A stretch of DNA of 64,000 nucleotides. It comes from Watersipora subatra (lineage: Eukaryota > Bryozoa > Gymnolaemata > Cheilostomatida > Watersiporidae). Made by a program: the position numbers and the translations under genes. Below are positions 15,901 to 52,636 of the stretch, piece after piece. Below the pieces are notes generated by a model. It saw only the letters and a list, made by a program, of their open reading frames with translations. It did no database searches and was not told where the DNA came from. The stretch covers positions 19,810,182 to 19,874,181 of the forward strand of contig NC_088711.1 of the NCBI RefSeq assembly GCF_963576615.1, in the 5' to 3' direction. Position 1 is the stretch's first letter. The number at the start of each line of letters is the position of its first letter.

Positions 15901-18900
15901 CTTTCAAAAAACAATAGACTGTATAAAAACCTAAAGACTAATCCCTTCAGATAATTAAAGACTGTATGAAAGCCTAAAGACTAATCCCTTCAGATAACTA
16001 AAGACTATGAAAACCTAAGGACTAATCCCTTCAGATAATTAAAGACTATGAAAACTAAGGACTAATCCTTTCAAGAAACAATAGACTGTATAAAAACCTA
16101 AAGACTAATCCCTTCAGATAATTAAAGACTGTATGAAAGCCTAAAGACTAATCCCTTCAGATAACTAAAGACTATGAAAACCTAAGGACTAATCCCTTCA
16201 GATAATTAAAGACCGTCCAAAGTGGTCTTGAAAACTTAAAGACTAATCCTTTCAGACAACTAAACACTATGAAAACCTAAGGACTAATCCCTTCAGATGA
16301 CTAAAGACTGTATGAAAACCTAAGGACTAATCCCTTCAGATAACTAAAAACTGTTGAAAACAAATACACACTGTGAAATAACATTAAAAAAAATTTTTAA
16401 GAACCTAAACTAGACATCAATATAGTAATAATAATATTCAAAATAATCAACTAAAAAGAGTTTTCTTATTCCAACACAGAGATAATAATAACAACAATAA
16501 TAATTATAGGAGATACAATAAAAGGAAGTATAGGCTTGACAACGCTTTCCTTATTTTTAGAGGTGATAAACTTAGCTGGTATCTTTATATAATTAAAAAA
16601 AACTAATTTATTTAAATTTCACCTATCGCTCCATTTTACTTATGAAGTAAAATGGAGCGATTAACTTACATCACTATTGTATGAAGTGAACCAAGCCGGA
16701 AACATAGCACATACTCACCGAAGTTAAAGGAATGGAAAAGAGTCTGATATCCGACACGGATTTAATAGCTGACAATTTGTCAAGTTCATCCCATTCAGAT
16801 ATTGCTGTATTGTTCATGTTTAACACTGACAGGTGAGCAAACATGGAAGCATTTTCGTCTCCATTGCCTACAAAAAAGAAAAGCGAGATATCTAGCCTAG
16901 TCTTAAGGTGAGCCCTTTGAACAGTCTCTCACATCTTATCATGCAGGTATCGAATGTTGACCTGTAGTTTAGCACAATTGAAAATGTTCGAAGAGGAAAA
17001 AATGATAAGAATGAGCAAGCATTCTACTTTAAATTTTAAAATTGCCACATGATAATAATCTCGTTTTACCGCAAGTTTCGACATCAACTCTCGACTTTTT
17101 GTTCCTAAAAAAAGTAAAAAATGATCACAGGTATAACCACAAAAACAAAAGGTCAAATAAGCTCCTCTAAAACCGTAAAACAGGCAGTTGTAATGAAAAG
17201 GGTTACAAAATGTGACAGAAACTCGATGTGGAGCAGAGAATATTAGAGCTAAAAGTGAAGTAAGAAAGCGTTGATCTTCCCACTGAGTCACCATGGCTGA
17301 AAAAATCAAAAGTAGCAGTACAACTTTTCCAGCATAAAAGAAGTTATACTATGTTGGGAGCATTGTATGGGCATATCTTAATGACTGCAACATTTAACCA
17401 AAACAAAGAATGAGTTTGAGGGATCTTCTTATGACAAACCCTGAACAGGAGCGAAATCATCAATAATCTTCGAAAATCATGTCATACTTGACCTTAAAGC
17501 CATAAAACCTTGAATAATTGCGTCTAAGCTGAAATCCGATGCAAGAAATGGCCATGAAATCAAAACAATCACGAGACATTATAAGAAAAACTGAAAAAAT
17601 GAATGAAGCGTGTATCGAAATGTGATCACACGCCCGAGGTCCAAACTAACTACCCTGAGATAAAGGATCCCATGCTCTCCCGACTGAGCCACCCGGGCTG
17701 ATGTACCAGTACTTTTGTGTTACACTCAGCATTGGGATAAAACAAATGTTACTTGGAAGCATACATTGAACCATACAATCTTGAAAATCGCAACATAAAA
17801 CCAACCACCAAAAGCCACATTCGCCAACAATGAATATGCTATACAAAAAATTGTAAGCAAAATACAAAAACAAGTATCGTGTGAACCAGTAAGATAGAGA
17901 ATCTAGTCATACATCATTTTATTGGCATCGAAACTTAATTTTTTGTTCGTAAACAATCCGAAATTGATCCAAAGTATAACCGGGATAAGAAGGGTTCAAA
18001 TCAGCACTAGCATTAACATTTCGAACCTACTGCTTTCAAAAACCAAAGAAAACATGTGAAAACAACGCCCGAGGTGGGGCTCGAACCCACGACCCTGGGA
18101 TTAAGAGGTAGCAATACTTTTGCGTTACACTCATCATTGGGATAAAACAAATGTTACTTGGAAGCATACGTTGAACCATACAATCTTGAAAATCGCAACA
18201 TAAAACAAACCACTGAAGGCCAAATTCACCAACAACGAATGCGCTATACAAGAAATTGTAAGAAAGTTACAAAAACAAGTATCGTGTGAACCAGTAAGAT
18301 AGAGAATCTAGTCATACGTCATTTAATTGGCATCAAAACCAATTCCTGGTTCGTAAACAATCCGAAATTGATCCAAAGTATAGCCGGAAGATGAAGGAAT
18401 CAAATCAGCATTATCATGAAAGTTTGACTTGCAACAAAATTCACATCACAGTTATTTGGTATCAAAAGATTTACCATGTCTTACTCTGCTGTGTTGTAAG
18501 TGCCGAATATGTGGAAATGTGATTACAAGGTCTTAAAAGCTCAAAAACGAAAAGCCGCCGTAGATTGGAATCTTTTTATTTCGATGAAGTAACCACGAAA
18601 TTTGGTTATCGTCTTGTCACGTATGTTCTCACATGAATTCAAAGATCAATACAAAACTCTATATAAAACTTATCGTAGTACTAGTTTATGACAATCACTT
18701 CGGGTCTTACCGAAGACCCCGTATCAAGCATAGATGCTCGCTACTTTACAGTTTTGTTTCGGCATTATTCAATCGTCAAGTCGTAATCTGATCATGTGAC
18801 CCAATACTGCGCAAATAATTTTTGCAGCACTTTCAGATTATCACAGATGACCAACAGGCTCGTCATGATTATCAGACAATGATATGTACTCCTTCGAGCT

Positions 18901-21900
18901 AAGGTTAAATAGTTCAACGAATTTTTACGGTAAGTTATAAGATATCAGTGCTAAAAGTGACAGCATTACAATGACGATAAAATAGACGCGTAAGAACAAT
19001 AGACATAGTTTTATTGAATGCGTGAAGTATATTTGTGAAAATATTTCGATGAATGAGGTTGCAAGAAAGTGTAAACAGAAGCCATCTGTCACAACTACAT
19101 CACATTTGAGGCGTTTAGGAACGGGAATCCAAACTACGGCGATCTCGTGTGGCTGCGATTTTCTGTTCGTTTTGGAGCATTTAAGAGCTTGTAATCACCT
19201 TTCCACATATTTTGCACCTACAACACAACAGAGTAAGACATGGTGAATCTTTTCATATCAAATAATGGTAATGTGAATTTTGTTGCAAGTCAACCTTTAA
19301 CATGTGGAAGCTACTGCTTTCAAAAGCCGAACAAAAAATTCGAATACACGCCCGAAGTGGGGCTCGAACCCACGACCCTGGAATTAAGAGTCCCATGCTT
19401 TACCGACTAAACCACCCGGGCTGATGTAGCAATACTTTTGTGTTACACTCATCATTGGGATAAAACAAATGTTACTTGGAAGCATACATTAGACCAAACA
19501 ATCTTGAAAATCGCAACATAAAACCAACCAACAAAATCCACATTCACCAACAATGAATGCACTATACAAAAATTTGTAACAAAAAAACAAAAACAAGTAT
19601 CGTGTGAACCAGTAAGATAGAGAATCTAGTCATACATCATTTTATTGGCATCGAAACTTAATTTTTGGTTCGTAAACAATCCGAAATTGATCCAAAGTAT
19701 AACCGGGATAAGAAGGGTTCAAATCAGCACTATCATTAACATTTCGAAGCTACTGCTTTTAAAAACCAAAGAAAAAATGTCAAAACAACGCCCGAGGTGG
19801 GGCTCGAACCCACGACCCTGGGATTAAGAGTCCCATGCTCTACCGACTGAGCCACCCGGGCTGATGTACCACGACTTTTGTGTTACACTCATCATTGGGA
19901 TAACACAAATGTTACTTGGCAGCATACGTTGGACCAAACAATCTTGAAAATCGCAACATAAAAAGCACGAGCAAAATCGACATTCACCAACAATGAATGT
20001 ACTATAGAAGAATTTGTAAGAAAAATACAAAAACAAGTATCGTGTGAACCAGTAAGATAGAGAATCTAGTCATACATCGTTTCATTGGCATCAAAACTTA
20101 ATTTTTGGTTTGTAAACAATCCAAAATTGATCTAAAAGTACAACCGGGGTAAGAAGGGTTCAAATAAGCACTATCATTAACATTTCGAACTTACTGCTTT
20201 CAAAAACCAAAAAAAAGAGAAAACAACGCCCGAGGTGGGGCTCGAACCCACGACCCTGGGATTAAGAGTCCCATGCTCTACCGACTGAGCCACCCGGGCT
20301 GATGTACCACGACTTTTGTGTTACACTCATCATTGGGATAACACAAATGTTACTTGGAAGCATACGTTGGACCAAACAATCTTGAAAATCGTAACATAAA
20401 AAGCACGAGCAAAATCGACATTCACCAACAATGAATGCGCTATACAAGAAATTGTAAGAAAAATACAAAGAACAAGTGTCGTGTGAACCAGTAAGATAGA
20501 GAATCTAGTCATACATCAGTTCATTGGCATCGAAACTTGATCTTTGGTTCGTAAACAATCCGAAACTGATCCAAAGTATAACCGGGATAAGAAGGGTTCG
20601 AATCAGCACTAGCATTACCATATCGAAGCTACTGCTTTCAAAAGCCTAACAAAAAATTCGAATGCACGCCCGAGGTGGGGCTCGAACCCACGACCCTGGG
20701 ATTAAGCGTCCCATGCTCTACCGACTGAGCCACCCGAGCTGATGTACCATGACTTTTGTGTTACACTCATCATCGGGATAACACAAATGTTACTTGGAAG
20801 CATACGTTGAACCATACAATCTTGAAAATCGCAACATAAAACCAACCACCAAAAGCTGCATTCGCCAACAATGAATGTGTTATACAAAAAATTGTTCGAA
20901 AAATACAAAAACAAGTATCGTGTGAACCAGTAAGATAGAAAATCTAGTCATACACCATTTTATGGGCATCGAAACTTAATTTTTTGTTCGTAAACAATCC
21001 GAAATTGATCCAAAGTATAACCGGGATAAGAAGGGTTCAAATCAGCACTAGCATTAACATTTCGAACCTACTGCTTTCAAAAACCAAAGAAAACATGTGA
21101 AAACAACGCCCGAGGTGGGGCTCGAACCCACGACCCTGGAATTAAGAGTCCCATGCTCTACCAACTGAGCCACCCGGGCTGATGTAGCAATACTTTTGCA
21201 TTACACTCATCATTGGGATAAAACAAATGTTACTTGGAAGCGAACGTTGAACCATACAATCTTGAAAATCGCAACATAAAACCAACAACTGAAGGCCAAA
21301 TTCACCAACAACGAATGCGCCATACAAGAAATTGTAAGAAAGTTACAAAAACAAGTATCGTGTGAACCAGTAAGATAGAGAATCTAGCCATACATTTCAT
21401 TGGCATCAAAACCCGATTCCTTGTTTGTAAACAATCCGAAATCGATCCAAAGTATAACCGGGATATGAAGGGTTCAAATCAGCATTATCATTAACATTTG
21501 GAAGCTACTGCTTTTAAAAACCAAAAAAAACATCATCACAACGCACGAGGTGGGGCTCAAACCCTCGAACCTGGAATTAAGAGTCCCATGCTCTACCGAC
21601 TGAGCCACCCGAGCTGATGTACCAGTACTTTTGCGTTACACTCATCATTGGGATAAAACAAATGTTACTTGGAAGCATATGTTGGACCAAACAATCTTGA
21701 AAATCGCAACATAAAACCAACCACCAAAAGCTGCATTCGCCAACAATGAATGTGCTATACAAAAAATTGTACGAACAATACAAAAACAAGTATCGTGTGA
21801 ACCAGTAAGATAGAGAATCTAGTCATACATCAGTTCATTGGCATCGAAACTTGATCTTTGGTTCGTAAACAATCCGAAACTGATCCAAAGTATAACCGGG

Positions 21901-24900
21901 ATAAGAAGGGTTCGAATCAGCACTAGCATTACCATATCGAAGCTACTGCTTTCAAAAGCCTAACAAAAAATTCGAATGCACGCCCGAGGTGGGGCTCGAA
22001 CCCACGACCCTGGGATTAAGAGTCCCATGCTCTACCGACTGAGCCACCCGGGCTGATGTACCATGACTTTTGTGTTACACTCATCATCGGGATAACACAA
22101 ATGTTACTTGGAAGCATACGTTGAACCATACAATCTTGAAAATCGCAACATAATACCAACCACTGAAGGCCAAATTCACCAACAACGAATGCGCTATACA
22201 AGAAATTGTAAGAAAGTTACAAAAACAAGTAACGTGTGAACCAGTAAGATAGAGAATCTAGTCATACATCATTTTATTGGCATTGAAACTTAATTTTTGG
22301 TTCGTAAACAATCCGAAATTGATCCAAAAGTATAACGGGGGTAAGAAGGGTTCAAATCAGCACTATCATTAACATTTGGAAGCTACTGCTTTTAAAAACC
22401 AAAAAAAACATCACCACAACGCACGAGGTGGGGTTCGAACCCTCAACCCTGGAATTAAGAGTCCCATGCTCTACCGACTGAGCCACCCGGGCTGATGTAC
22501 CAGCACTTTTGCGTTACACTCATCATTGGGATAAAACAAATGTTACTTGGAAGCATACATTAGACCAAACAATCTTGAAAATCGCAACATAAAACCAACC
22601 AACAAAATCGACATTCACCAACAATGAATGCACTATACAAAAATTTGTAAGAAAAATACAAAAACAAGTATCGTGTGAACCAGTAAGATAGAGAATCTAG
22701 TCATACAACATTTTATTGGCATCGAAACTTATTCTTCGGTTCGAAAACAATCCGAAATTGATCCAAAGTATAACCGGGATAAGAAGGTTCAAATCAGCAC
22801 TATCATTAACATTTGGAAGCTACTGCTTTCAAAAACCAAAGAAAACATATGAAAACAACGCCCGAGGTGGGGCTCAAACCCACGACCCTGGGATTAAGAA
22901 TCCCATGGTCTACCGGCTGAGCCACCCGGGCTAATGTACCAGTACTTTTGTGTTACAATCATCATTGGGATAAAACAAATGTTACTTGGAAGCATACGTT
23001 GAACCATACAATCTTGAAAATCGCAACATAAAACCAACCACCAAAAGCTGCATTCGCCAACAATGAATGTGTTATACAAAAAATTGTTTGAAAAATACAA
23101 AAACAAGTATCGTGTGAACCAGTAAGATAGAAAATCTAGTCATACACCATTTTATTGGCATCGAAACTTAATTTTTTGTTCGTAAACAATCCGAAATTGA
23201 TCCAAAATATAACCGGGATAAGAAGGGTTCAAATCAGCACTAGCATTAACATTTCGAACCTACTGCTTTCAAAAACCAAAGAAAACATGTGAAAACAACG
23301 CCCGAGGTGGGGCTCGAACCCACGACCCTGGGATTAAGAGTCCCATGCTCTACCGACTGAGCCACCCGGGCTGATGTACCACGACTTTTGTGTTACACTC
23401 ATCATTGGGATAACACAAATGTTACTTGGCAGCATACGTTGGACCAAACAATCTTGAAAATCGCAACATAAAAAGCACGAGCAAAATCGACATTCACCAA
23501 CAATGAATGTACTATAGAAGAATTTGTAAGAAAAATACAAAAACAAGTATCGTGTGAACCAGTAAGATAGAGAATCTAGTCATACATCGTTTCATTGGCA
23601 TCAAAACTTAATTTTTGGTTTGTAAACAATCCAAAATTGATCTAAAAGTACAACCGGGGTAAGAAGGGTTCAAATAAGCACTATCATTAACATTTCGAAC
23701 TTACTGCTTTCAAAAACCAAAAAAAAGAGAAAACAACGCCCGAGGTGGGGCTCGAACCCACGACCCTGGGATTAAGAGTCCCATGCTCTACCGACTGAGC
23801 CACCCGGGCTGATGTACCACGACTTTTGTGTTACACTCATCATTGGGATAACACAAATGTTACTTGGAAGCATACGTTGGACCAAACAATCTTGAAAATC
23901 GCAACATAAAAAGCACGAGCAAAATCGACATTCACCAACAATGAATGCGCTATACAAGAAATTGTAAGAAAAATACAAAGAACAAGTGTCGTGTGAACCA
24001 GTAAGATAGAGAATCTAGTCATACATCAGTTCATTGGCATCGAAACTTGATCTTTGGTTCGTAAACAATCCGAAACTGATCCAAAGTATAACCGGGATAA
24101 GAAGGGTTCGAATCAGCACTAGCATTACCATATCGAAGCTACTGCTTTCAAAAGCCTAACAAAAAATTCGAATGCACGCCCGAGGTGGGGCTCGAACCCA
24201 CGACCCTGGGATTAAGCGTCCCATGCTCTACCGACTGAGCCACCCGAGCTGATGTACCATGACTTTTGTGTTACACTCATCATCGGGATAACACAAATGT
24301 TACTTGGAAGCATACGTTGAACCATACAATCTTGAAAATCGCAACATAAAACCAACCACCAAAAGCTGCATTCGCCAACAACGAATGTGTTATACAAAAA
24401 ATTGTTCGAAAAATACAAAAACAAGTATCGTGTGAACCAGTAAGATAGAAAATCTAGTCATACACCATTTTATGGGCATCGAAACTTAATTTTTTGTTCG
24501 TAAACAATCCGAAATTGATCCAAAGTATAACCGGGATAAGAAGGGTTCAAATCAGCACTAGCATTAACATTTCGAACCTACTGCTTTCAAAAACCAAAGA
24601 AAACATGTGAAAACAACGCCCGAGGTGGGGCTCGAACCCACGACCCTGGAATTAAGAGTCCCATGCTCTACCAACTGAGCCACCCGGGCTGATGTAGCAA
24701 TACTTTTGCATTACACTCATCATTGGGATAAAACAAATGTTACTTGGAAGCGAACGTTGAACCATACAATCTTGAAAATCGCAACATAAAACCAACAACT
24801 GAAGGCCAAATTCACCAACAACGAATGCGCCATACAAGAAATTGTAAGAAAGTTACAAAAACAAGTATCGTGTGAACCAGTAAGATAGAGAATCTAGCCA

Positions 24901-27900
24901 TACATTTCATTGGCATCAAAACCCGATTCCTTGTTTGTAAACAATCCGAAATCGATCCAAAGTATAACCGGGATATGAAGGGTTCAAATCAGCATTATCA
25001 TTAACATTTGGAAGCTACTGCTTTTAAAAACCAAAAAAAACGTTATCACAACGCCCGAGGTGGGGCTCGAACCCACGACCCTGGAATTAAGAGTCCCATG
25101 CTTTACCGACTAAACCACCCGGGCTGATGTAGCAATACTTTTGTGTTACACTCATCATTGGGATAAAACAAATGTTACTTGGAAGCATACATTAGACCAA
25201 ACAATCTTGAAAATCGCAACATAAAACCAACCAACAAAATCCACATTCACCAACAATGAATGCACTATACAAAAATTTGTAACAAAAAAACAAAAACAAG
25301 TATCGTGTGAACCAGTAAGATAGAGAATCTAGTCATACATCATTTTATTGGCATCGAAACTTAATTTTTGGTTCGTAAACAATCCGAAATTGATCCAAAG
25401 TATAACCGGGATAAGAACGGTTCAAATCAGCACTAGCATTAACATTTCGAAGCTACTGCTTTCAAAAACCGAAGAAAAAATGTGAAACCACGCCCGAGGT
25501 GGGGCTCGAACCCACGACCCTGGGATTAAGAGTCCCATGCTCTACCGACTGAGCCACCCGGGCTGATGTACCAGTACTTTTGCGTTACACTCATCATTGG
25601 GATAAAACAAATGTTACTTGGAAGCATACGTTGCACTAAACAATCTTGAAAATCGCAACATGAAACCAACCACCAAAAGCTACATTCACCAACAATGAAT
25701 GCGCTATACAAGAAATTGTAAGAAAAATACAAAGAACAAGTATCGTGTGAACCAGTAAGATAGAGAATCTAGCCATACATTTCATTGGCATCAAAACCCG
25801 ATTCCTTGTTTTTAAACAATCCGAAATCGATCCAAAGTATAACCGGAAGATGAAGGGTTCAAATCAGCACTTTCATTAACATTTGGAAGCTACTGCTTTT
25901 AAAAACCAAAAAAAACATCACCACAACGCACGAGGTGGGGTTCGAACCCTCGACCCTGGGATTAAGAGTCCCATGCTCTACCGACTGAGCCACCCGGGCT
26001 GATGTAGCAATACTTTTGCGTTACACTCATCATTGGGATAAAACAAATGCTACTTGGAAGCATACGTCGCGCTAAACAATCTTGAAAATCGCAACATGAA
26101 ACCAACCACCAAAAGCCACATTCACCAACAATGAATGCGCTATACAAGAAATTGTAAGAAAAATACAAAGAACAAGTATCGTGTGAACCAGTAAGATAGA
26201 GAATCTAGTCATACATCAGTTCATTGGCATAGAAACTTGATTTTTTTGTTCGTAAACAATCCGAAATCGATCCAAAGTATAACCGGGATAAGAAGGGTTC
26301 AAATCAGCATTAGCATTAACATTTCGAAGCTACTGCTTTCAAAAACCGAAGAAAAAATGTGAAAACAACGTCCGAGGTGGGGCTCGAACCCACGACCCTG
26401 GGATTAAGAGTCCCATGCTCTACCGACTGAGCCACCCGGGCTGATGTAGCAATACTTTTGCGTTACACTCATCATTGGGATAACACAAATGTTACTTGGA
26501 AGCATACGTTGAACCATACAATCTTGAAAATCGCAACATAATACCAACCACTGAAGGCCAAATTCACCAACAACGAATGCGCTATACAAGAAATTGTAAG
26601 AAAGTTACAAAAACAAGTATCGTGTGAACCAGTAAGATAGAGAATCTAGTCATACATCATTTTATTGGCATTGAAACTTAATTTTTGGTTCGTAAACAAT
26701 CCGAAATTGATCCAAAAGTATAACGGGGGTAAGAAGGGTTCAAATCAGCACTATCATTAACATTTGGAAGCTACTGCTTTTAAAAACCAAAAAAAACATC
26801 ACCACAACGCACGAGGTGGGGTTCGAACCCTCGACCCTGGAATTAAGAGTCCCATGCTCTACCGACTGAGCCACCCGGGCTGATGTACCAGCACTTTTGC
26901 GTTACACTCATCATTGGGATAAAACAAATGTTACTTGGAAGCATACATTAGACCAAACAATCTTGAAAATCGCAACATAAAACCAACCAACAAAATCGAC
27001 ATTCACCAACAATGAATGCACTATACAAAAATTTGTAAGAAAAATACAAAAACAAGTATCGTGTGAACCAGTAAGATAGAGAATCTAGTCATACAACATT
27101 TTATTGGCATCGAAACTTATTCTTCGGTTCGAAAACAATCCGAAATTGATCCAAAGTATAACCGGGATAAGAAGGTTCAAATCAGCACTATCATTAACAT
27201 TTGGAAGCTACTGCTTTCAAAAACCAAAGAAAACATATGAAAACAACGCCCGAGGTGGGGCTCAAACCCACGACCCTGGGATTAAGAATCCCATGGTCTA
27301 CCGGCTGAGCCACCCGGGCTGATGTACCAGTACTTTTGTGTTACAATCATTATTGGGATAAAACAAATGTTACTTGGAAGCATACGTTGAACCATACAAT
27401 CTTGAAAATCGCAACATAAAACCAACCACCAAAAGCTGCATTCGCCAACAATGAATGTGTTATACAAAAAATTGTTTGAAAAATACAAAAACAAGTATCG
27501 TGTGAACCAGTAAGATAGAAAATCTAGTCATACACCATTTTATTGGCATCGAAACTTAATTTTTTGTTCGTAAACAATCCGAAATTGATCCAAAATATAA
27601 CCGGGATAAGAAGGGTTCAAATCAGCACTAGCATTAACATTTCGAACCTACTGCTTTCAAAAACCAAAGAAAACATGTGAAAACAATGCCCGAGGTGGGG
27701 CTCGAACCCACGACCCTGGGATTAAGAGTCCCATGCTCTACCGACTGAGCCACCCGAGCTGATGTACCAGTACTTTTGCGTTACACTCATCATTGGGATA
27801 AAACAAATGTTACTTGGAAGCATACGTTGGACCAAACAATCTTGAAAATCGCAACATAATAAGAAAGTTACAAAAACAAGTATCGTGTGAACCAGTAAGA

Positions 27901-30900
27901 TAGAGAATCTAGCCATACATTTCATTGGCATCAAAACCCGATTCCTTGTTTGTAAACAATCCGAAATCGATCCAAAGTATAACCGGGATATGAAGGGTTC
28001 AAATCAGCATTATCATTAACATTTGGAAGCTACTGCTTTTAAAAACCAAAAAAAACGTTATCACAACGCCCGAGGTGGGGCTCGAACCCACGACCCTGGA
28101 ATTAAGAGTCCCATGCTTTACCGACTAAACCACCCGGGCTGATGTAGCAATACTTTTGTGTTACACTCATCATTGGGATAAAACAAATGTTACTTGGAAG
28201 CATACATTAGACCAAACAATCTTGAAAATCGCAACATAAAACCAACCAACAAAATCCACATTCACCAACAATGAATGCACTATACAAAAATTTGTAACAA
28301 AAAAACAAAAACAAGTATCGTGTGAACCAGTAAGATAGAGAATCTAGTCATACATCATTTTATTGGCATCGAAACTTAATTTTTGGTTCGTAAACAATCC
28401 GAAATTGATCCAAAGTATAACCGGGATAAGAACGGTTCAAATCAGCACTAGCATTAACATTTCGAAGCTACTGCTTTCAAAAACCGAAGAAAAAATGTGA
28501 AACCACGCCCGAGGTGGGGCTCGAACCCACGACCCTGGGATTAAGAGTCCCATGCTCTACCGACTGAGCCACCCGGGCTGATGTACCAGTACTTTTGCGT
28601 TACACTCATCATTGGGATAAAACAAATGTTACTTGGAAGCATACGTTGCACTAAACAATCTTGAAAATCGCAACATGAAACCAACCACCAAAAGCTACAT
28701 TCACCAACAATGAATGCGCTATACAAGAAATTGTAAGAAAAATACAAAGAACAAGTATCGTGTGAACCAGTAAGATAGAGAATCTAGTCATACATTTCAT
28801 TGGCATCAAAACCCGATTCCTTGTTTTTAAACAATCCGAAATCGATCCAAAGTATAACCGGAAGATGAAGGGTTCAAATCAGCACTTTCATTAACATTTG
28901 GAAGCTACTGCTTTTAAAAACCAAAAAAAACATCACCACAACGCACGAGGTGGGGTTCGAACCCTCGACCCTGGAATTAAGAGTCCCATGCTCTACCGAC
29001 TGAGCCACCCGGGCTGATGTACCAGCACTTTTGCGTTACACTCATCATTGGGATAAAACAAATGTTACTTGGAAGCATACATTAGACCAAACAATCTTGA
29101 AAATCGCAACATAAAACCAACCAACAAAATCGACATTCACCAACAATGAATGCACTATACAAAAATTTGTAACAAAAAAACAAAAACAAGTATCGTGTGA
29201 ACCAGTAAGATAGAGAATCTAGCCATACATTTCATTGGCATCAAAACCCGATTCCTTGTTTGTAAACAATCCGAAATCGATCCAAAGTATAACCGGAAGA
29301 TGAAGGGTTCAAATCAGCACTTTCATTAACATTTGGAAGCTACTGCTTTTAAAAACCAAAAAAAACATCACCACAACGCACGAGGTGGGGTTCGAACCCT
29401 CGACCCTGGGATTAAGAGTCCCATGCTCTACCGACTGAGCCACCCGGGCTGATGTAGCAATACTTTTGCGTTACACTAATCATTGGGATAAAACAAATGC
29501 TACTTGGAAGCATACGTCGCGCTAAACAATCTTGAAAATCGCAACATGAAACCAACCACCAAAAGCCACATTCACCAACAATGAATGCGCTATACAAGAA
29601 ATTGTAAGAAAAATACAAAGAACAAGTATCGTGTGAACCAGTAAGATAGAGAATCTAGTCATACATCAGTTCATTGGCATCGAAACTTGATTTTTTTGTT
29701 CGTAAACAATCCGAAATCGATCCAAAGTATAACCGGGATAAGAAGGGTTCAAATCAGCATTAGCATTAACATTTCGAAGCTACTGCTTTCAAAAACCGAA
29801 GAAAAAATGTGAAAACAACGCCCGAGGTGGGGCTCGAACCCACGACCCTGGGATTAAGAGTCCCATGCTCTACCGACTGAGCCACCCGGGCTGATGTAGC
29901 AATACTTTTGTGTTACACTCATCATTGGGATAAAACAAATGTTACTTGGAAGCATACATTAGACCAAACAATCTTGAAAATCGCAACATAAAACCAACCA
30001 ACAAAATCCACATTCACCAACAATGAATGCACTATACAAAAATTTGTAACAAAAAAACAAAAACAAGTATCGTGTGAACCAGTAAGATAGAGAATCTAGT
30101 CATACATCATTTTATTGGCATCGAAACTTAATTTTTGGTTCGTAAACAATCCGAAATTGATCCAAAGTATAACCGGGATAAGAACGGTTCAAATCAGCAC
30201 TAGCATTAACATTTCGAAGCTACTGCTTTCAAAAACCGAAGAAAAAATGTGAAACCACGCCCGAGGTGGGGCTCGAACCCACGACCCTGGGATTAAGAGT
30301 CCCATGCTCTACCGACTGAGCCACCCGGGCTGATGTACCAGTACTTTTGCGTTACACTCATCATTGGGATAAAACAAATGTTACTTGGAAGCATACGTTG
30401 CACTAAACAATCTTGAAAATCGCAACATGAAACCAACCACCAAAAGCTACATTCACCAACAATGAATGCGCTATACAAGAAATTGTAAGAAAAATACAAA
30501 GAACAAGTATCGTGTGAACCAGTAAGATAGAGAATCTAGTCATACATTTCATTGGCATCAAAACCCGATTCCTTGTTTTTAAACAATCCGAAATCGATCC
30601 AAAGTATAACCGGAAGATGAAGGGTTCAAATCAGCACTTTCATTAACATTTGGAAGCTACTGCTTTTAAAAACCAAAAAAAACATCACCACAACGCACGA
30701 GGTGGGGTTCGAACCCTCGACCCTGGAATTAAGAGTCCCATGCTCTACCGACTGAGCCACCCGGGCTGATGTACCAGCACTTTTGCGTTACACTCATCAT
30801 TGGGATAAAACAAATGTTACTTGGAAGCATACATTAGACCAAACAATCTTGAAAATCGCAACATAAAACCAACCAACAAAATCGACATTCACCAACAATG

Positions 30901-33900
30901 AATGCACTATACAAAAATTTGTAACAAAAAAACAAAAACAAGTATCGTGTGAACCAGTAAGATAGAGAATCTAGCCATACATTTCATTGGCATCAAAACC
31001 CGATTCCTTGTTTGTAAACAATCCGAAATCGATCCAAAGTATAACCGGAAGATGAAGGGTTCAAATCAGCACTTTCATTAACATTTGGAAGCTACTGCTT
31101 TTAAAAACCAAAAAAAACATCACCACAACGCACGAGGTGGGGTTCGAACCCTCGACCCTGGGATTAAGAGTCCCATGCTCTACCGACTGAGCCACCCGGG
31201 CTGATGTAGCAATACTTTTGCGTTACACTAATCATTGGGATAAAACAAATGCTACTTGGAAGCATACGTCGCGCTAAACAATCTTGAAAATCGCAACATG
31301 AAACCAACCACCAAAAGCCACATTCACCAACAATGAATGCGCTATACAAGAAATTGTAAGAAAAATACAAAGAACAAGTATCGTGTGAACCAGTAAGATA
31401 GAGAATCTAGTCATACATCAGTTCATTGGCATCGAAACTTGATTTTTTTGTTCGTAAACAATCCGAAATCGATCCAAAGTATAACCGGGATAAGAAGGGT
31501 TCAAATCAGCATTAGCATTAACATTTCGAAGCTACTGCTTTCAAAAACCGAAGAAAAAATGTGAAAACAACGCCCGAGGTGGGGCTCGAACCCACGACCC
31601 TGGGATTAAGAGTCCCATGCTCTACCGACTGAGCCACCCGGGCTGATGTAGCAATACTTTTGTGTTACACTCATCATTGGGATAAAACAAATGTTACTTG
31701 GAAGCATACATTAGACCAAACAATCTTGAAAATCGCAACATAAAACCAACCAACAAAATCCACATTCACCAACAATGAATGCACTATACAAAAATTTGTA
31801 ACAAAAAAACAAAAACAAGTATCGTGTGAACCAGTAAGATAGAGAATCTAGTCATACATCATTTTATTGGCATCGAAACTTAATTTTTGGTTCGTAAACA
31901 ATCCGAAATTGATCCAAAGTATAACCGGGATAAGAACGGTTCAAATCAGCACTAGCATTAACATTTCGAAGCTACTGCTTTCAAAAACCGAAGAAAAAAT
32001 GTGAAACCACGCCCGAGGTGGGGCTCGAACCCACGACCCTGGGATTAAGAGTCCCATGCTCTACCGACTGAGCCACCCGGGCTGATGTACCAGTACTTTT
32101 GCGTTACACTCATCATTGGGATAAAACAAATGTTACTTGGAAGCATACGTTGCACTAAACAATCTTGAAAATCGCAACATGAAACCAACCACCAAAAGCT
32201 ACATTCACCAACAATGAATGCGCTATACAAGAAATTGTAAGAAAAATACAAAGAACAAGTATCGTGTGAACCAGTAAGATAGAGAATCTAGTCATACATT
32301 TCATTGGCATCAAAACCCGATTCCTTGTTTTTAAACAATCCGAAATCGATCCAAAGTATAACCGGAAGATGAAGGGTTCAAATCAGCACTTTCATTAACA
32401 TTTGGAAGCTACTGCTTTTAAAAACCAAAAAAAACATCACCACAACGCACGAGGTGGGGTTCGAACCCTCGACCCTGGAATTAAGAGTCCCATGCTCTAC
32501 CGACTGAGCCACCCGGGCTGATGTACCAGCACTTTTGCGTTACACTCATCATTGGGATAAAACAAATGTTACTTGGAAGCATACATTAGACCAAACAATC
32601 TTGAAAATCGCAACATAAAACCAACCAACAAAATCGACATTCACCAACAATGAATGCACTATACAAAAATTTGTAACAAAAAAACAAAAACAAGTATCGT
32701 GTGAACCAGTAAGATAGAGAATCTAGCCATACATTTCATTGGCATCAAAACCCGATTCCTTGTTTGTAAACAATCCGAAATCGATCCAAAGTATAACCGG
32801 AAGATGAAGGGTTCAAATCAGCACTTTCATTAACATTTGGAAGCTACTGCTTTTAAAAACCAAAAAAAACATCACCACAACGCACGAGGTGGGGTTCGAA
32901 CCCTCGACCCTGGGATTAAGAGTCCCATGCTCTACCGACTGAGCCACCCGGGCTGATGTAGCAATACTTTTGCGTTACACTAATCATTGGGATAAAACAA
33001 ATGCTACTTGGAAGCATACGTCGCGCTAAACAATCTTGAAAATCGCAACATGAAACCAACCACCAAAAGCCACATTCACCAACAATGAATGCGCTATACA
33101 AGAAATTGTAAGAAAAATACAAAGAACAAGTATCGTGTGAACCAGTAAGATAGAGAATCTAGTCATACATCAGTTCATTGGCATCGAAACTTGATTTTTT
33201 TGTTCGTAAACAATCCGAAATCGATCCAAAGTATAACCGGGATAAGAAGGGTTCAAATCAGCATTAGCATTAACATTTCGAAGCTACTGCTTTCAAAAAC
33301 CGAAGAAAAAATGTGAAAACAACGCCCGAGGTGGGGCTCGAACCCACGACCCTGGGATTAAGAGTCCCATGCTCTACCGACTGAGCCACCCGGGCTGATG
33401 TAGCAATACTTTTGCGTTACACTCATCATTGGGATAAAACAAATGTTACTTGGAAGCATACGTTGAACCATACAATCTTGAAAATCGCAACATAAAACCA
33501 ACCACTGAAGGCCAAATTCACCAACAACGAATGCGCTATACAAGAAATTGTAAGAAAGTTACAAAAACAAGTATCGTGTGAACCAGTAAGAGAGAGAATC
33601 TAGTCATACATCATTTTATTGGCATTGAAACTTAATTTTTGGTTCGTAAACAATCCGAAATTGATCCAAAAGTATAGTGGGGTAAGAAGGGTTCAAATCA
33701 GCACTATCATTAACATTTGGAAGCTATTGCTTTCAAAAACCGAAGAAAAAATGTGAAAACAACGCCCGAGGTGGGGCTCGAACCCACGACCCTGGGATTA
33801 AGTGTCCCATGCTCTACCGACTGAGCCACCCGGGCTGATGTAGCAATACTTTTGCGTTACACTCATCATTGGGATAAAACAAATGTTACTTGGAAGCATA

Positions 33901-36900
33901 CGTTGAACCATACCATCTGAAAATCGCAACATAAAACCAACGACCAAAATCCACATTCTCCAACAATGAATGTACCATACAAGAAATTGTAAGAAAAATA
34001 CAAAAACAAGTATCGTGTGAACCAGTAAGATAGAGAATCTAGTCATACATTTCATTGGCATCAAAACTAGATTTTCTGTTCGTAAACAATCCGAAGTTGA
34101 TCCTAAAGTATAGTGGGGTAAGAAGGGTTCAAATCAGCACTATCAATAACATTTCGAAGCTACTGCTTTCAAAAACCGAAAAAAAAATGTGAAAACAACG
34201 CCCGAGGTGGGGCTCGAACCCACGACTCGGGGATTAAGAGACCCATGCTCTACCGACTGAGCCACCCGGGCTGATGTACCATGGCTTTTGTGTTACACTC
34301 ATCATTGGGATAAAACAAATGCTACTTGGACGCATACGTCGCGCTAAACAATCTTGAAAATCGCAACATGAAACCAACCACCAAAAGCCACATTCACCAA
34401 CAATGAATGCGCTATACAAGAAATTGTAAGAAAAATACAAAGAACAAGTATCGTGTGAACCAGTAAGATAGAGAATCTAGTCATACATCAGTTCATTGGC
34501 ATCGAAACTTGATTTTTTGTTCGTAAACAATCCGAAATCGATCCAAAGTATAACCGGGATAAGAAGGGTTCAAATCAGCATTAGCATTAACATTTCGAAG
34601 CTACTGCCTTCAAAAACCGAAGAAAAAATGTGAAAACAACGCCCGAGGTGGGGCTCGAACCCACGACCCTGGGATTAAGAGTCCCATGCTCTACCGACTG
34701 AGCCACCCGGGCTGATGTAGCAATACTTTTGCGTTACACTCATCATTGGGATAAAACAAATGTTACTTGGAAACATACATTGGACCAAACAATTTTGAAA
34801 ATTGCGACATAAAACCAACCACCAAAATCCACATTCACCAACAATGAATATACTATACAAAAATTTGTAAGAAAAGTACAAAAACAAGTATCGTGTGAAC
34901 CAGTAAGATAGAGAATCTAGTCATACATCATTTTATTGACATCGAAACTTAATTTTTGGTTCGTAAACAATCCAAAATTGATCCAAAAGTATAACGGGGA
35001 TAAGAAGGGTTCAAATCAGCACTATCAATAACATTTGGAAGCTACTGCTTTCAAAAACCGAAAAAAAAATGTGAAAACAACGCCCGAGGTGGGGCTCGAA
35101 CCCACGACCCTGGGATTAAGAGTCCCATGCTCTACCGACTGAGCCACCCGGGCTGATGTACCAGTACTTTTGTGTTACACTCATGATTGAGATAAAACAA
35201 ATGTTACTTGGAAGCATACATTGAACCATACCATCTGAAAATCGCAACATAAAACCAACCACCAAAAGCTACATTCACCAACAATGAATGCGCTATACAA
35301 GAAATTGTAAGAAAAATACAAAGAACAAGTATCGTGTGAACCAGTAAGATAGAGAATCTAGCCATACATTTCATTGGCATCAAAACCCGATTCCTTGTTT
35401 TTAAACAATCCGAAATCGATCCAAAGTATAACCGGGATATGAAGGGTTCAAATCAGCATTATCATTAACATTTGGAAGCTACTGCTTTTAAAAACCAAAA
35501 AAAACATCACCACAACGCACGAGGTGGGGTTCGAACCCTCGACCCTGGAATTAAGAGTCCCATGCTCTACCGACTGAGCCACCCGGGCTGATGTACCAGC
35601 ACTTTTGCGTTACACTCATCATTGGGATAAAACAAATGTTACTTGGAAGCATACATTAGACCAAACAATCTTGAAAATCGCAACATAAAACCAACCAACA
35701 AAATCGACATTCACCAACAATGAATGCACTATACAAAAATTTGTAAGAAAAATACAAAAACAAGTATCGTGTGAACCAGTAAGATAGAGAATCTAGTCAT
35801 ACAACATTTTATTGGCATCGAAACTTATTCTTCGGTTCGAAAACAATCCGAAATTGATCCAAAGTATAACCGGGATAAGAAGGTTCAAATCAGCACTATC
35901 ATTAACATTTGGAAGCTACTGCTTTCAAAAACCAAAGAAAACATATGAAAACAACGCCCGAGGTGGGGCTCAAACCCACGACCCTGGGATTAAGAATCCC
36001 ATGGTCTACCGGCTGAGCCACCCGGGCTGATGTACCAGTACTTTTGTGTTACAATCATTATTGGGATAAAACAAATGTTACTTGGAAGCATACGTTGAAC
36101 CATACAATCTTGAAAATCGCAACATAAAACCAACCACCAAAAGCTGCATTCGCCAACAATGAATGTGTTATACAAAAAATTGTTTGAAAAATACAAAAAC
36201 AAGTATCGTGTGAACCAGTAAGATAGAAAATCTAGTCATACACCATTTTATTGGCATCGAAACTTAATTTTTTGTTCGTAAACAATCCGAAATTGATCCA
36301 AAATATAACCGGGATAAGAAGGGTTCAAATCAGCACTAGCATTAACATTTCGAACCTACTGCTTTCAAAAACCAAAGAAAACATGTGAAAACAATGCCCG
36401 AGGTGGGGCTCGAACCCACGACCCTGGGATTAAGAGTCCCATGCTCTACCGACTGAGCCACCCGAGCTGATGTACCAGTACTTTTGCGTTACACTCATCA
36501 TTGGGATAAAACAAATGTTACTTGGAAGCATACGTTGGACCAAACAATCTTGAAAATCGCAACATAATAAGAAAGTTACAAAAACAAGTATCGTGTGAAC
36601 CAGTAAGATAGAGAATCTAGCCATACATTTCATTGGCATCAAAACCCGATTCCTTGTTTGTAAACAATCCGAAATCGATCCAAAGTATAACCGGGATATG
36701 AAGGGTTCAAATCAGCATTATCATTAACATTTGGAAGCTACTGCTTTTAAAAACCAAAAAAAACGTTATCACAACGCCCGAGGTGGGGCTCGAACCCACG
36801 ACCCTGGAATTAAGAGTCCCATGCTTTACCGACTAAACCACCCGGGCTGATGTAGCAATACTTTTGTGTTACACTCATCATTGGGATAAAACAAATGTTA

Positions 36901-39900
36901 CTTGGAAGCATACATTAGACCAAACAATCTTGAAAATCGCAACATAAAACCAACCAACAAAATCCACATTCACCAACAATGAATGCACTATACAAAAATT
37001 TGTAACAAAAAAACAAAAACAAGTATCGTGTGAACCAGTAAGATAGAGAATCTAGTCATACATCATTTTATTGGCATCGAAACTTAATTTTTGGTTCGTA
37101 AACAATCCGAAATTGATCCAAAGTATAACCGGGATAAGAACGGTTCAAATCAGCACTAGCATTAACATTTCGAAGCTACTGCTTTCAAAAACCGAAGAAA
37201 AAATGTGAAACCACGCCCGAGGTGGGGCTCGAACCCACGACCCTGGGATTAAGAGTCCCATGCTCTACCGACTGAGCCACCCGGGCTGATGTACCAGTAC
37301 TTTTGCGTTACACTCATCATTGGGATAAAACAAATGTTACTTGGAAGCATACGTTGCACTAAACAATCTTGAAAATCGCAACATGAAACCAACCACCAAA
37401 AGCTACATTCACCAACAATGAATGCGCTATACAAGAAATTGTAAGAAAAATACAAAGAACAAGTATCGTGTGAACCAGTAAGATAGAGAATCTAGCCATA
37501 CATTTCATTGGCATCAAAACCCGATTCCTTGTTTTTAAACAATCCGAAATCGATCCAAAGTATAACCGGAAGATGAAGGGTTCAAATCAGCACTTTCATT
37601 AACATTTGGAAGCTACTGCTTTTAAAAACCAAAAAAAACATCACCACAACGCACGAGGTGGGGTTCGAACCCTCGACCCTGGGATTAAGAGTCCCATGCT
37701 CTACCGACTGAGCCACCCGGGCTGATGTAGCAATACTTTTGCGTTACACTCATCATTGGGATAAAACAAATGCTACTTGGAAGCATACGTCGCGCTAAAC
37801 AATCTTGAAAATCGCAACATGAAACCAACCACCAAAAGCCACATTCACCAACAATGAATGCGCTATACAAGAAATTGTAAGAAAAATACAAAGAACAAGT
37901 ATCGTGTGAACCAGTAAGATAGAGAATCTAGTCATACATCAGTTCATTGGCATAGAAACTTGATTTTTTTGTTCGTAAACAATCCGAAATCGATCCAAAG
38001 TATAACCGGGATAAGAAGGGTTCAAATCAGCATTAGCATTAACATTTCGAAGCTACTGCTTTCAAAAACCGAAGAAAAAATGTGAAAACAACGCCCGAGG
38101 TGGGGCTCGAACCCACGACCCTGGGATTAAGAGTCCCATGCTCTACCGACTGAGCCACCCGGGCTGATGTAGCAATACTTTTGCGTTACACTCATCATTG
38201 GGATAACACAAATGTTACTTGGAAGCATACGTTGAACCATACAATCTTGAAAATCGCAACATAATACCAACCACTGAAGGCCAAATTCACCAACAACGAA
38301 TGCGCTATACAAGAAATTGTAAGAAAGTTACAAAAACAAGTATCGTGTGAACCAGTAAGATAGAGAATCTAGTCATACATCATTTCATTGGCATCAAAAC
38401 CCGATTCCTTGTTTTTAAACAATCCGAAATCGATCCAAAGTATAACCGGAAGATGAAGGGTTCAAATCAGCACTTTCATTAACATTTGGAAGCTACTGCT
38501 TTTAAAAACCAAAAAAAACATCACCACAACGCACGAGGTGGGGTTCGAACCCTCGACCCTGGAATTAAGAGTCCCATGCTCTACCGACTGAGCCACCCGG
38601 GCTGATGTACCAGCACTTTTGCGTTACACTCATCATTGGGATAAAACAAATGTTACTTGGAAGCATACATTAGACCAAACAATCTTGAAAATCGCAACAT
38701 AAAACCAACCAACAAAATCGACATTCACCAACAATGAATGCACTATACAAAAATTTGTAACAAAAAAACAAAAACAAGTATCGTGTGAACCAGTAAGATA
38801 GAGAATCTAGCCATACATTTCATTGGCATCAAAACCCGATTCCTTGTTTGTAAACAATCCGAAATCGATCCAAAGTATAACCGGAAGATGAAGGGTTCAA
38901 ATCAGCACTTTCATTAACATTTGGAAGCTACTGCTTTTAAAAACCAAAAAAAACATCACCACAACGCACGAGGTGGGGTTCGAACCCTCGACCCTGGGAT
39001 TAAGAGTCCCATGCTCTACCGACTGAGCCACCCGGGCTGATGTAGCAATACTTTTGCGTTACACTAATCATTGGGATAAAACAAATGCTACTTGGAAGCA
39101 TACGTCGCGCTAAACAATCTTGAAAATCGCAACATGAAACCAACCACCAAAAGCCACATTCACCAACAATGAATGCGCTATACAAGAAATTGTAAGAAAA
39201 ATACAAAGAACAAGTATCGTGTGAACCAGTAAGATAGAGAATCTAGTCATACATCAGTTCATTGGCATCGAAACTTGATTTTTTGTTCGTAAACAATCCG
39301 AAATCGATCCAAAGTATAACCGGGATAAGAAGGGTTCAAATCAGCATTAGCATTAACATTTCGAAGCTACTGCCTTCAAAAACCGAAGAAAAAATGTGAA
39401 AACAACGCCCGAGGTGGGGCTCGAACCCACGACCCTGGGATTAAGAGTCCCATGCTCTACCGACTGAGCCACCCGGGCTGATGTAGCAATACTTTTGCGT
39501 TACACTCATCATTGGGATAAAACAAATGTTACTTGGAAACATACATTGGACCAAACAATTTTGAAAATTGCGACATAAAACCAACCACCAAAATCCACAT
39601 TCACCAACAATGAATATACTATACAAAAATTTGTAAGAAAAGTACAAAAACAAGTATCGTGTGAACCAGTAAGATAGAGAATCTAGTCATACATCATTTT
39701 ATTGACATCGAAACTTAATTTTTGGTTCGTAAACAATCCAAAATTGATCCAAAAGTATAACGGGGATAAGAAGGGTTCAAATCAGCACTATCAATAACAT
39801 TTGGAAGCTACTGCTTTCAAAAACCGAAAAAAAAATGTGAAAACAACGCCCGAGGTGGGGCTCGAACCCACGACCCTGGGATTAAGAGTCCCATGCTCTA

Positions 39901-42900
39901 CCGACTGAGCCACCCGGGCTGATGTACCAGTACTTTTGTGTTACACTCATGATTGAGATAAAACAAATGTTACTTGGAAGCATACATTGAACCATACCAT
40001 CTGAAAATCGCAACATAAAACCAACCACTGAAGGCCAAATTCACCAACAATGAATGCGCTATACAAGAAATTGTAAGAAAAATACAGAAACAAGTATCGT
40101 GTGAACCAGTAACATAGAGAATCTAGTCATACATTCCCTTGGCATCGAAACTTAATTTTTGGTTCGTAAACAATCCGAAGTTGATTCAAAAGTATCGTGG
40201 GGTAAGAAGGGTTCAAATCAGCACTATCATTAACATTTAGAAGCTACTGCTTTTAAAAACCGAAAAAAAACATTATCACAACGCCCGAGGTGGGGCTCGA
40301 ACCCACGACCCTGGGATTAAGAGTCCCATGCTCTACCGACTGAGCCACCCGGGCTGATGTACCAGTACTTTTGCGTTACACTCATGATTGGGATAAAACA
40401 AATGTTACTTGGAAGCATAAATTGGACCAAACAATCTTGAAAATCGCAACATAAAACCAACCACCAAAATCCACATTCACCAACAATGCATGTACTATAC
40501 AAGAATTTGTAAGAAAAATACAAAAACAAGTATCGTGTGAACCAGTAACATAGAGAATCTAGTCATACATCATTTTATTGGCATCGAAACTTAATTTTTG
40601 GTTCGTAAACAATCCGAAGTTGATCCAAAAGTATAGTGGGGTAAGAAGGGTTCAAATCAGCACTATCATTAATATTTCAAAGCTGCTGCTTTCAAAAACC
40701 GAAGAAAAAATGTGAAAACAACGCCCGAGGTGGGGCTCAAACCCACGACCCTGGGATTAAGAGTCCCATGCTCTACCGACTGAGCCACCCGGGCTGATGA
40801 ACCAGTACTTTTGTGTTACAATCATCAGTGGGATAAAACAAATGTTACTTGGAAGCATACGTTGAACCAAACAATCTTGAAAATCGCAACATGAAACGAA
40901 CCACCAAAATCCACATTCACCAACAATGAATGTACTATACAATTTGTAAGAAAAATACAAAAACAAGTATCGTGTGAACCAGTAAGATAGAGATTCTAAT
41001 CATACATCATTTTATTGGCATCGAAACTTAATTTTTGGTTCGTAAACAATCCGAAATTGATCCAGTATACAACCGGGAGATGAAGGGTTCAAATCAGCAT
41101 TATAATCACCATTTGGACTGAGCCACCCAGGCAGATAAAAAGCCAGTTTTGGGTTACAGTAATCTTCTGTCGTTGGCATAAAACAAGTATAACAGTACTT
41201 GCGATCATACATTGAACAATTAACTTTAAAAATCACACTATGAAGGAACTCACCAAAAGCTTGTTCCCAAAGAAACAAAACAATGAGATCAAGGGTTCAA
41301 ATCAGTAAATTTCGAGCACACTGAGCTTAAAACTTCCACATAAAAAGTTAATCAGGAACAATATCAGTTACAAACATAATTATAAGAATACATATTTTAT
41401 TTTATTCGTTTCTGAATCCTAAAAAGCATGACGAATACTTCAAAAAATTATCCTGCGTTAAAACAAATACAATATATAAAAATTATGTAAAAAATGCGTG
41501 ACAAATTTTAATGGTATGTGAAAACTACATGACAAATTTAAATGTTATGTGAAAACTCCATGATAAGTTTTAATGGTATGTGAAAACTTCATGACAAATT
41601 TAAATGTTATGTGAAAACTTCATGACAAATTTAAATGTTATGTGAAAACTACATGACAAATTTAAATGTTATGTGAAAATTCCATGATAAATTTAAATGT
41701 TATGTGAAAACTTCATGACAAATTTAAATGTTATGTGAAAACTACATGACAAATTTAAATGTTATGTGAAAACTTCATGACAAATTTAAATGTTATGTGA
41801 AAACTTCATGACAAATTTAAATGTTATGTGAAAACTTCATGACAAATTTAAATGTTATGTGAAAACCACATGACAAATTTAAATGTTATGTGAAAATTCC
41901 ATGATAAATTTAAATGTTATGTGAAAACTTCATGACAAATTTAAATGTAATGTGAAAACTACATGACAAATTTAAATGTTATGTGAAAACTTCATGACAA
42001 ATTTAAATGTTATGTGAAAACTTCATGACAAATTTAAATGTTATGTGAAAACTTCATGACAAATTTAAATGTTATGTGAAAACTTCATGACAAATTTAAA
42101 TGTTATGTGAAGACTTCATGACAAATTTAAATGTTATGTGAAAACTCCATGATAAATTTAAATGTTATGTGAAAACTTCATGACAAATTTAAATGTTATG
42201 TGAAAACTACATGACAAATTTAAATGTTATGTGAAAACTTCATGACAAATTTAAATGGTATGTGAAAACTAAATGACAAATTTAAATGGTATGTGAAAAC
42301 TAAATGACAAATTTAAATGGTATGTGAAAACTAAAGCAATAAAGTAAAAATCAGTAAAAAGAGGTTTTTATTATCATTTTACTTTAGAGATTTACCAAAG
42401 GTGAGTATACGCTCAGCAATGTGTAATTGGTGAAATGATTAATAGAAATAACTTACTATAGTACACACTTATTATAGTTTACTTGAGATAGTTTACACAA
42501 CTATTATTTTGACATTATCTTTAATTTTAACCAGCTTCTCTATTTTTAACAGCAAAATTGTAACATTTCAAAAACTGACAAACGTAGGATGTGAATTATT
42601 TTAAATATTAAAACAAGTTTTCCACTTTTACATTATATAAAGGTGAGCGTAAGTGAACGTTTAGCTGCAACAAACTCACCACAGGAAGTGATGTTATTGT
42701 GCGCGAGTGTAAGATTTCTCAGTTTAGGAAAGACTTTATCAAGCCTTTGCACATCTTTCCAGTCCCTTATATTGTTCTCAGTTAACTGAAGTAGTCTGAG
42801 ACTATCATATGCAGGTATATCTAGAGTTACCTCCTCATAGGAATTCCCACTGAGATAGAGCTCTTCAAGACTACAATTAAAAGCCACTCTTGTTCTCCTC

Positions 42901-52632: not shown

Positions 52633-52636
52633 TTAA

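Follow-up and report, generated by a model that had tools for sequence, protein, structure and literature searches.

A tandem array of 50 tRNA-Lys(CUU) genes within an intron of a predicted TBCEL-like gene in a bryozoan genome

Analysis of a 64-kb window (the whole stretch of DNA studied here, which sits within a 67-Mb contig of the assembly) revealed a tandem array of 50 tRNA-Lys(CUU) genes in units of ~439 bp (19297..41117, minus strand; ARAGORN, Rfam RF00005, TRF, and unit alignment). The array tRNAs are intronic (nested) genes of a predicted spliced TBCEL-like gene and lie on the same strand as their host. We suggest, with a probability of about two in three, that unequal exchange multiplied a tRNA cassette in this intron and that the resulting gene bank is functional in part.

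The array and its host intron

ARAGORN reported exactly 50 tRNAs in the 64-kb window, all of them tRNA-Lys(ctt) and all on the minus strand, and Rfam RF00005 gave exactly 50 matches, scoring 50.5 to 69.5 bits (gathering score, 29); both agree with the initial annotation, which had described 50 full-length 73-nt minus-strand tRNA-Lys(CUU) genes. The copy number of 50 is that of the assembly. Together, the full-length 73-nt genes span 19349..40794 (minus strand; ARAGORN). The main TRF periods were 435, 439, and 440, with the units head-to-tail in one orientation; 47 of the 49 complete units measured 435 to 442 bp, in line with the earlier description of one gene per 439-bp unit, and the other two measured 380 bp (unit alignment). 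Nineteen of the 50 tRNA genes are identical, as had been claimed, and equal the consensus. With head-to-tail tRNA units in one orientation and spread by local duplication, the array has the features of a tDNA satellite.

A higher-order block of four units (1,752 bp) occurs in three tandem copies (28130..33414, minus strand; exact repeat list), and at an offset of 1,752 the block repeat has 0 differences across an overlap of 3,533 bp; an exact repeat search found repeats of 3,533, 2,036, and 1,781 bp inside the array. Divergence among units reaches a maximum of 18.9%. The two right-most units are 6 to 7% from their nearest unit, and the interior units at 33763 and 34199 are still 6 to 8% from theirs. 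At the left edge lie a decayed tRNA-Lys pseudogene (17618..17698, minus strand; nhmmer with the unit profile, E 3.4e-15), two spacer units with a truncated tRNA between them (17699..18426, minus strand; nhmmer E 7.9e-143 and 1.6e-99), and a transposon-like insert with inverted ends (18419..19303, no strand assigned; self-BLAST), in which 18419-18554 matches 19163-19298 in inverted orientation at 88%. Relatives of this insert were found at 51709-52636 and in the adjacent stretches L012 and L015. Decayed unit remnants mark the right edge (41145..41323, minus strand), where 41145-41262 matched at E 1.3e-7 and 41279-41323 at only E 0.33 (nhmmer). A possible older and strongly decayed unit at 17056..17292 (minus strand) is uncertain, as its nhmmer score of 14.9 bits (E 1.3e-4) equals its bias.

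The host intron measures 25,812 bp (16868..42679, minus strand) and is bounded by splice sites GTGAGT...TTTTTTGTAG; the array fills 84.5% of it, or 94.0% when the insert and all decayed edges (17056-41323) are counted. Exon 4 (191 bp; 42680..42870, minus strand) and exon 5 (149 bp; 16719..16867, minus strand) were delimited by splice sites and by tblastn with Bugula neritina TBCEL (P0004) and with human TBCEL. The same human query located exon 2 (45919..46074; E 1.3e-8), exon 3 (44936..45115; E 2.4e-5), and exon 7 (14248..14409; E 3.0e-6, with paralog comparison), and a paralog exon located exon 6 (14547..14678; tblastn E 6.3e-7); for these four minus-strand exons, the coordinates are match limits, not splice sites. 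Exons 2 to 7 are collinear, with open frames on the minus strand, while homology matches of this kind did not reveal exon 1 or the 3' end. The host gene is a conserved, cytoskeleton-related one. Bugula neritina TBCEL matches exons 4 and 5 in one chain, and GT..AG sites join the two exons in frame, which upholds their earlier assignment to a single gene. The satellite-scale, single-isoacceptor array in sense orientation within one intron was likewise borne out, with 50 of 50 genes being Lys(ctt) on the strand of the host.

Conservation and decay among copies and relatives

All 21 stem pairs and all checked invariant bases are kept in 27 of the 50 array tRNAs, and the other 23 have at least one structural defect, which changes the initial picture. 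About half of the array's tRNA genes therefore look usable, as judged from predicted structure. In the consensus tRNA, which is complete, every pair is kept. T-run terminators, also claimed at the outset, are present throughout: TTTT lies within 15 nt downstream of 50/50 array tRNAs, versus 27.6% of 15-nt spacer windows on the same strand. Changes per column within the array amount to 0.44 in the tRNA versus 0.89 in the spacer (P 0.005 in a column permutation test that takes columns as independent); besides windows overlapping the tRNA, 2 of 440 circular 73-column windows (starts 203 and 204) are equally low. Among 14 nonconsensus tRNA variants, 4 are fully structured versus 2.7 expected at random (P 0.26), an excess too small to demonstrate selection on single copies. 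Intact and defective units are coamplified: within the four-unit block, the tRNAs at 30258 and 31571 are intact and those at 30694 and 31129 are defective.

Searches of the spacer for a second RNA gene, with Rfam at E values up to 5 over 29880-31660, returned only the four tRNAs, and when five segments of the spacer were folded on both strands, no z-score was strong (lowest, -1.9). Variation inside the array is lowest over 45 bp of spacer, at unit positions 226-270, where 8 changes were counted (P 0.005 by permutation); compared with a related locus on another contig, C5, this block has 4/45 mismatches, which is near the spacer average, and we therefore claim no function for it. A 27-base spacer pattern had 0 matches in viral contigs and 0 in the genome contigs scanned.

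The C5 locus, a relative one unit long, is the only match besides the array edge that the spacer search of the genome lists (these counts are lower bounds). Its tRNA part has 0/73 mismatches to the array consensus, versus 56/363 in the spacer with its outer ends (Fisher P 2.7e-5) or 45/335 with the ends trimmed (P 1.2e-4); thus, the tRNA was conserved while its surroundings drifted. The locus lies 11.9 to 18.4% from array units, which are themselves up to 18.9% apart, so that it may be either the source of the array or an early daughter.

Two tandem TBCEL paralogs lie below the window. The corresponding intron measures only 166 and 175 bp in them (its acceptor was picked by motif and frame) and contains no tRNA, indicating that the array expanded in one paralog. 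No tRNAs were found in stretches L012 to L016 beside the window, and the best match to the array unit in the 40 kb below it had an E value of only 4.7. The adjoining paralog combines a short intron with open exons, and loss of the host transcript might therefore be tolerated. These short-intron paralogs provide a natural control for the effect of the array on host splicing.

Across the assembly, we found 60 full-length Lys(CUU) genes, 50 in the one intron and 10 elsewhere, although strongly decayed copies elsewhere could escape these searches. Position 9 is invariably G in the array copies, with 0 variants, whereas 9 of the 10 other genes have A9, and G9 is shared by the C5 copy alone; use of the array is therefore testable through mature tRNA-Lys. 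The number of tRNA genes is often taken as a proxy for tRNA supply, and sequencing of mature tRNA-Lys could reveal whether the tRNA genes of an intronic satellite are used. There are at least two further tRNA arrays in the same genome, a tRNA-Lys(UUU) satellite on contig C3 and a mixed Arg/Gln/His array on contig C8 (8-kb sample each). The array had been portrayed as unusual in being a single-isoacceptor satellite in an intron; it is not the only tRNA array in this genome.

Origin and possible function

The position and strand of the array, its splice frame, higher-order blocks, and decayed edges, the short paralog introns, the single-copy relative, and the conservation of the tRNA are all supported at the sequence level. 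We propose that a segment of ~435 bp, which comprised a single tRNA-Lys(CUU) gene and its flanking sequence and is related to the single-copy C5 locus, was inserted into the short exon 4-5 intron in one member of a tandem trio of TBCEL paralogs. The relative is one unit long, which suggests, speculatively, that what moved was a small circle or some equivalent copy of unit length. Head-to-tail unequal exchange would then have produced the 50-copy satellite that fills most of the 25.8-kb intron. Amplification was probably blind to the state of individual tRNA copies, of which about half may still be usable Pol III genes that contribute to the supply of lysine tRNA. Two circumstances would let the host gene tolerate the array: tRNA genes that lie in an intron in sense orientation need not obstruct Pol II, and a paralog with a short intron lies adjacent. 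It is conceivable, but in our view improbable, that the intron holds a lysine tRNA bank gated by its host, in which transcription from the TBCEL promoter switches ~27 structurally intact Pol III genes open or closed together, and that in this lineage entire isoacceptor pools were relocated from dispersed genes into satellites; if this were true, lysine tRNA supply would be tied to how active a single protein gene is.

A neutral satellite, whose tRNA genes are carried along unexpressed in inactive chromatin while the neighboring paralog provides TBCEL function, is a less likely account, though one to be taken seriously. The 23/50 defective copies, coamplified with intact ones, and the 4/14 intact variants versus 2.7 expected would fit it, as does the Arabidopsis SYY cluster, described in the available text as silenced in most tissues (PMC12308677). 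Against it stand the C5 comparison (0/73 in the tRNA versus 45/335 in the spacer), although this may reflect selection that predates amplification; the tRNA trailers, which vary and yet keep a run of at least four T in 13/13 distinct forms; and the values for host exon 4 relative to paralog 2 (pN 0.115, pS 0.541). That the assembler multiplied a few real units is quite improbable: blocks of 1.7 to 3.5 kb with zero differences and an identical sister for 26/50 units would be expected of such an artifact, but the array comprises 20 unit types among 49 units at a 2% threshold, has a mean divergence of 9%, and is structured by decayed edges and an insert within a 67-Mb contig. The zero-difference blocks could in part be assembly products.

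Hardly credible, in our judgment, is an origin of the units as SINE copies, or as a Helenus-type LTR element with a tRNA-like promoter, that were later tandemized. Every unit has a tRNA-derived promoter, and tRNA-like sequence occurs in Helenus LTRs according to the available portion of the source (PMC10886601). However, the spacer search points to just the array edge and C5 (a lower bound), so that among the matches listed there are no dispersed copies as a SINE or a Helenus-type element would leave; the C5 copy includes ~140 bp upstream of the tRNA, so that it does not start at the Pol III start site as expected of a Pol III retrocopy; and the consensus tRNA is complete, with all of its pairs unbroken. 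The 33 primer-binding-pattern matches all have 3 mismatches and fall at tRNA 3' ends or in their truncated copy. The multiplied cassette is our preferred reading.

Comparison with known tRNA clusters

Satellite-scale tRNA repeats occur in animals, as in the Xenopus 3.18-kb tDNA satellite, which has several tRNA genes per unit. Tandem or clustered tRNA organization is reported to have arisen many times independently, and the Entamoeba arrays and other eukaryotic clusters resemble the present array in this respect, but no single-isoacceptor intronic satellite is described in the available text (PMC2888827). The human tRNA variable-number tandem repeat at 1q23.3, with 9 to 43 units per allele, is likewise a head-to-tail tRNA macrosatellite; its GC-rich 7.3-kb units contain CTCF sites and five tRNA genes that are not all of one kind, and the word "intron" is absent from the accessible text (PMC4041453), whereas the present array has a single isoacceptor in each 439-bp unit and lies within one intron. 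In Arabidopsis, the SYY and proline clusters share tandem tRNA units and local duplication, and SYY also shares pseudogene copies, but SYY is a plant cluster with two isoacceptors per repeat (PMC12308677); the tRNA-Cys cluster has units of similar size (0.4 kb) but only four genes, also in a plant (PMC10701932). The accessible parts of these two sources make no mention of an intronic position. The Bombyx silk-gland tRNA-Ala cluster is an animal tandem cluster for a single amino acid, but it is linked to silk production (mentioned in the available text of PMC12308677). Caenorhabditis elegans likewise has tRNA genes within introns of protein genes, and the host promoter affects their expression, but the available text describes no satellite (PMC4999229). 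The literature covered (titles and abstracts, with few subscription journals) contained no single-isoacceptor intronic tRNA satellite and no bryozoan nuclear tRNA arrays, and the word "tRNA" is absent from the main text, as available, of two bryozoan genome papers (PMC10213821, PMC13326412).

Host gene, intron and tandem paralogs

Matching with human TBCEL and with the peptides of the paralogs described below placed exons 2 to 7 of the host gene collinearly on the minus strand, and exons 4 and 5 can be joined in frame across GTGAGT...TTTTTTGTAG; a second GTGAGT lies directly after exon 5. As far as the sequence can tell, this supports the proposal in the initial annotation that the tRNA array lies between TBCEL exons 4 and 5 in the sense direction. 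Exon 4 drew eight protein matches, the only named one being TBCEL of the bryozoan Bugula neritina, which extends into exon 5 and suggests that the DNA itself comes from a bryozoan; exon 1 and the gene end of this TBCEL-like gene were not found. The array makes up 84.5% of the 25,812-bp host intron, or 94.0% if counted as 17056-41323, with a transposon-like insert and an uncertain piece included.

The same intron holds, beside the tRNA array, a 31-bp satellite of 27 copies (41483-42332). A transposon-like repeat of about 0.9 kb with inverted ends occurs at 18419-19303, adjoining the edge of the array, at 51709-52636 and in two stretches below the window (L012 and L015). The window also contains an LTR-type retrotransposon (53279-58119; terminal matches of 169 bp at 98.8%; protease, RNase H and integrase domains) and, on the plus strand, an open frame matching the PRA1 family (62387-62650).

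Within the assembly (783.7 Mb, 239 contigs; the window is C4:19810182-19874181), exon 4 is matched at two further sites, located below the window at distances of 8 and 21 kb, which represent tandem TBCEL paralogs. Paralog 2 has open matches to exons 2 to 7; paralog 3 carries a stop within exon 2, and the human query gave no exon 3 match there. With acceptors picked by motif and frame, their exon 4-5 introns measure 166 and 175 bp. ARAGORN predicted no tRNA genes in 40 kb of sequence below the window, where the best match to the array unit had an E value of 4.7. Between the window copy and paralog 2, exon 4 shows a pS of 0.541 against a pN of 0.115, and it therefore resembles a constrained coding exon. 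The two copies are more alike in exon 5 (pS, 0.112; pN, 0.078), which points to a recent conversion event between paralogs. Between the window copy and its two paralogs (L013 and L015), pS ranges from 0.11 to 0.19 for exon 5 (16719-16867) and from 0.49 to 0.54 for exon 4.

Organization and amplification of the tRNA-Lys(CUU) array

ARAGORN and the Rfam tRNA model recovered the same 50 tRNA-Lys(CUU) genes, all on the minus strand (19349-40794), the number first reported from inspection; the claim of nineteen identical copies also held, among 15 distinct tRNA sequences. No stem pair is broken in the consensus, and 27/50 copies keep all stem pairs and checked invariant bases; among the 23 that do not, broken pairs 3-70 and 50-64 form the most frequent defect class. 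The T-run terminators previously noted are present as TTTT within 15 nt downstream of every one of the 50 genes, versus 27.6% of spacer windows on the same strand, and a TTTT-type run is retained in all 13 distinct trailers.

Unit length is 435 to 442 bp in 47 of the 49 complete units and 380 bp in the other two. At 2% divergence these 49 fall into 20 types, and their arrangement shows higher-order blocks: four units, together 1,752 bp, are repeated in tandem with zero differences across 3,533 bp, an exact repeat of 2,036 bp recurs at an offset of 8,708, and 26/50 units have an identical sister. The two right-most units diverge by 6 to 7% from their nearest unit, and units 33763 and 34199 are interior exceptions (6 to 8%). 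The 50 genes are flanked by a tRNA pseudogene, two extra spacer units, the transposon-like insert and, at the right, decayed pieces; an older decayed piece at the left is uncertain. Higher-order blocks with old units at the edges are the pattern that would be expected under unequal exchange.

Per column, the tRNA accumulated 0.44 changes and the spacer 0.89 (P = 0.005 by column permutation); 14 of 440 circular windows of tRNA length were as low, of which 12 overlap the tRNA and two begin at unit positions 203 and 204. The least variable stretch of the array is a 45-bp spacer block (unit positions 226-270), which showed no notable conservation against the related locus on contig C5 discussed below. 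Structure is retained in 4 of 14 variants, versus a random expectation of 2.7 (P = 0.26), and intact and defective copies have been amplified together. We conclude that amplification was probably blind to the state of single copies and that any benefit would lie in the set.

A single-copy relative and the dispersed lysine tRNA genes

A genome search with one spacer, in which counts are lower bounds since very common words were skipped, returned, among the matches listed, only two locations: the array's own edge and a single site on C5. The C5 locus comprises one unit, ordered as unit positions 299-440 and then 1-287. Its tRNA matches the array consensus at all 73 positions, versus differences at 56/363 non-tRNA positions (Fisher P = 2.7e-5), or at 45/335 once the outer ends, where homology fades, are removed (P = 1.2e-4); the tRNA gene was thus conserved as the sequence around it drifted. 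Divergence between C5 and the array units is 11.9 to 18.4%, within a unit-to-unit range reaching 18.9%; the locus is thus not a recent daughter of the array. It may be either the source or an early daughter. Because the locus is one unit long, we speculate that the unit might have been transferred via a circle or an equivalent event.

A 32-base core is matched exactly 31 times; 22 of these matches fall inside the array and nine outside it, and a shorter core with one mismatch allowed added one more outside, so that the non-array places number ten. All array copies share an invariant G9, and nine of the ten non-array Lys(CUU) genes have A9, with C5 the only one of the ten to carry G9; one base can therefore separate array-type tRNA from nearly all dispersed tRNA. 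Five tRNA-Lys(CUU) genes lacking the array spacer lie on both strands inside 37 kb at C3:67118764-67155769 (L020-L024).

Other tRNA arrays and comparison with known systems

Of 81,024 first-look candidates in the Rfam tRNA genome search, 63 were scored, and all of these lie in two plus-strand regions: 40 at C3:53.72-53.84 Mb and 23 at C8:62.50-62.61 Mb. An 8-kb sample of the former (L061) contained a 259-bp tandem repeat with 24 genes for tRNA-Lys(UUU). The matches of a Lys(UUU) query, with 40 of 468 candidates scored, spanned 53,717,337-53,801,627. In this satellite (C3:53717337-53839084) the Lys(UUU) matches thus cover 84 kb, the tRNA matches extend across 122 kb, and all are on the plus strand. 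The C8 array (C8:62501760-62606577; tRNA matches over 105 kb) yielded, in its own 8-kb sample (L062), 11 tRNA genes for Arg, Gln and His, most of them spaced 0.65 to 0.7 kb apart. To judge from the 16 kb sampled in these two arrays, tRNA satellites seem to be a recurrent feature of this genome, one each for Lys(CUU) and Lys(UUU) among them; of the three arrays seen, the intronic Lys(CUU) array is apparently the smallest.

Tandem tRNA arrays are described for man (PMC4041453), Arabidopsis (PMC12308677) and Entamoeba and others (PMC2888827). Two further reports describe intronic tRNA genes under host-promoter influence in C. elegans (PMC4999229) and tRNA-like elements in human introns with an effect on splicing (PMC7722341). 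The literature searches turned up no intronic satellite of one tRNA isoacceptor.
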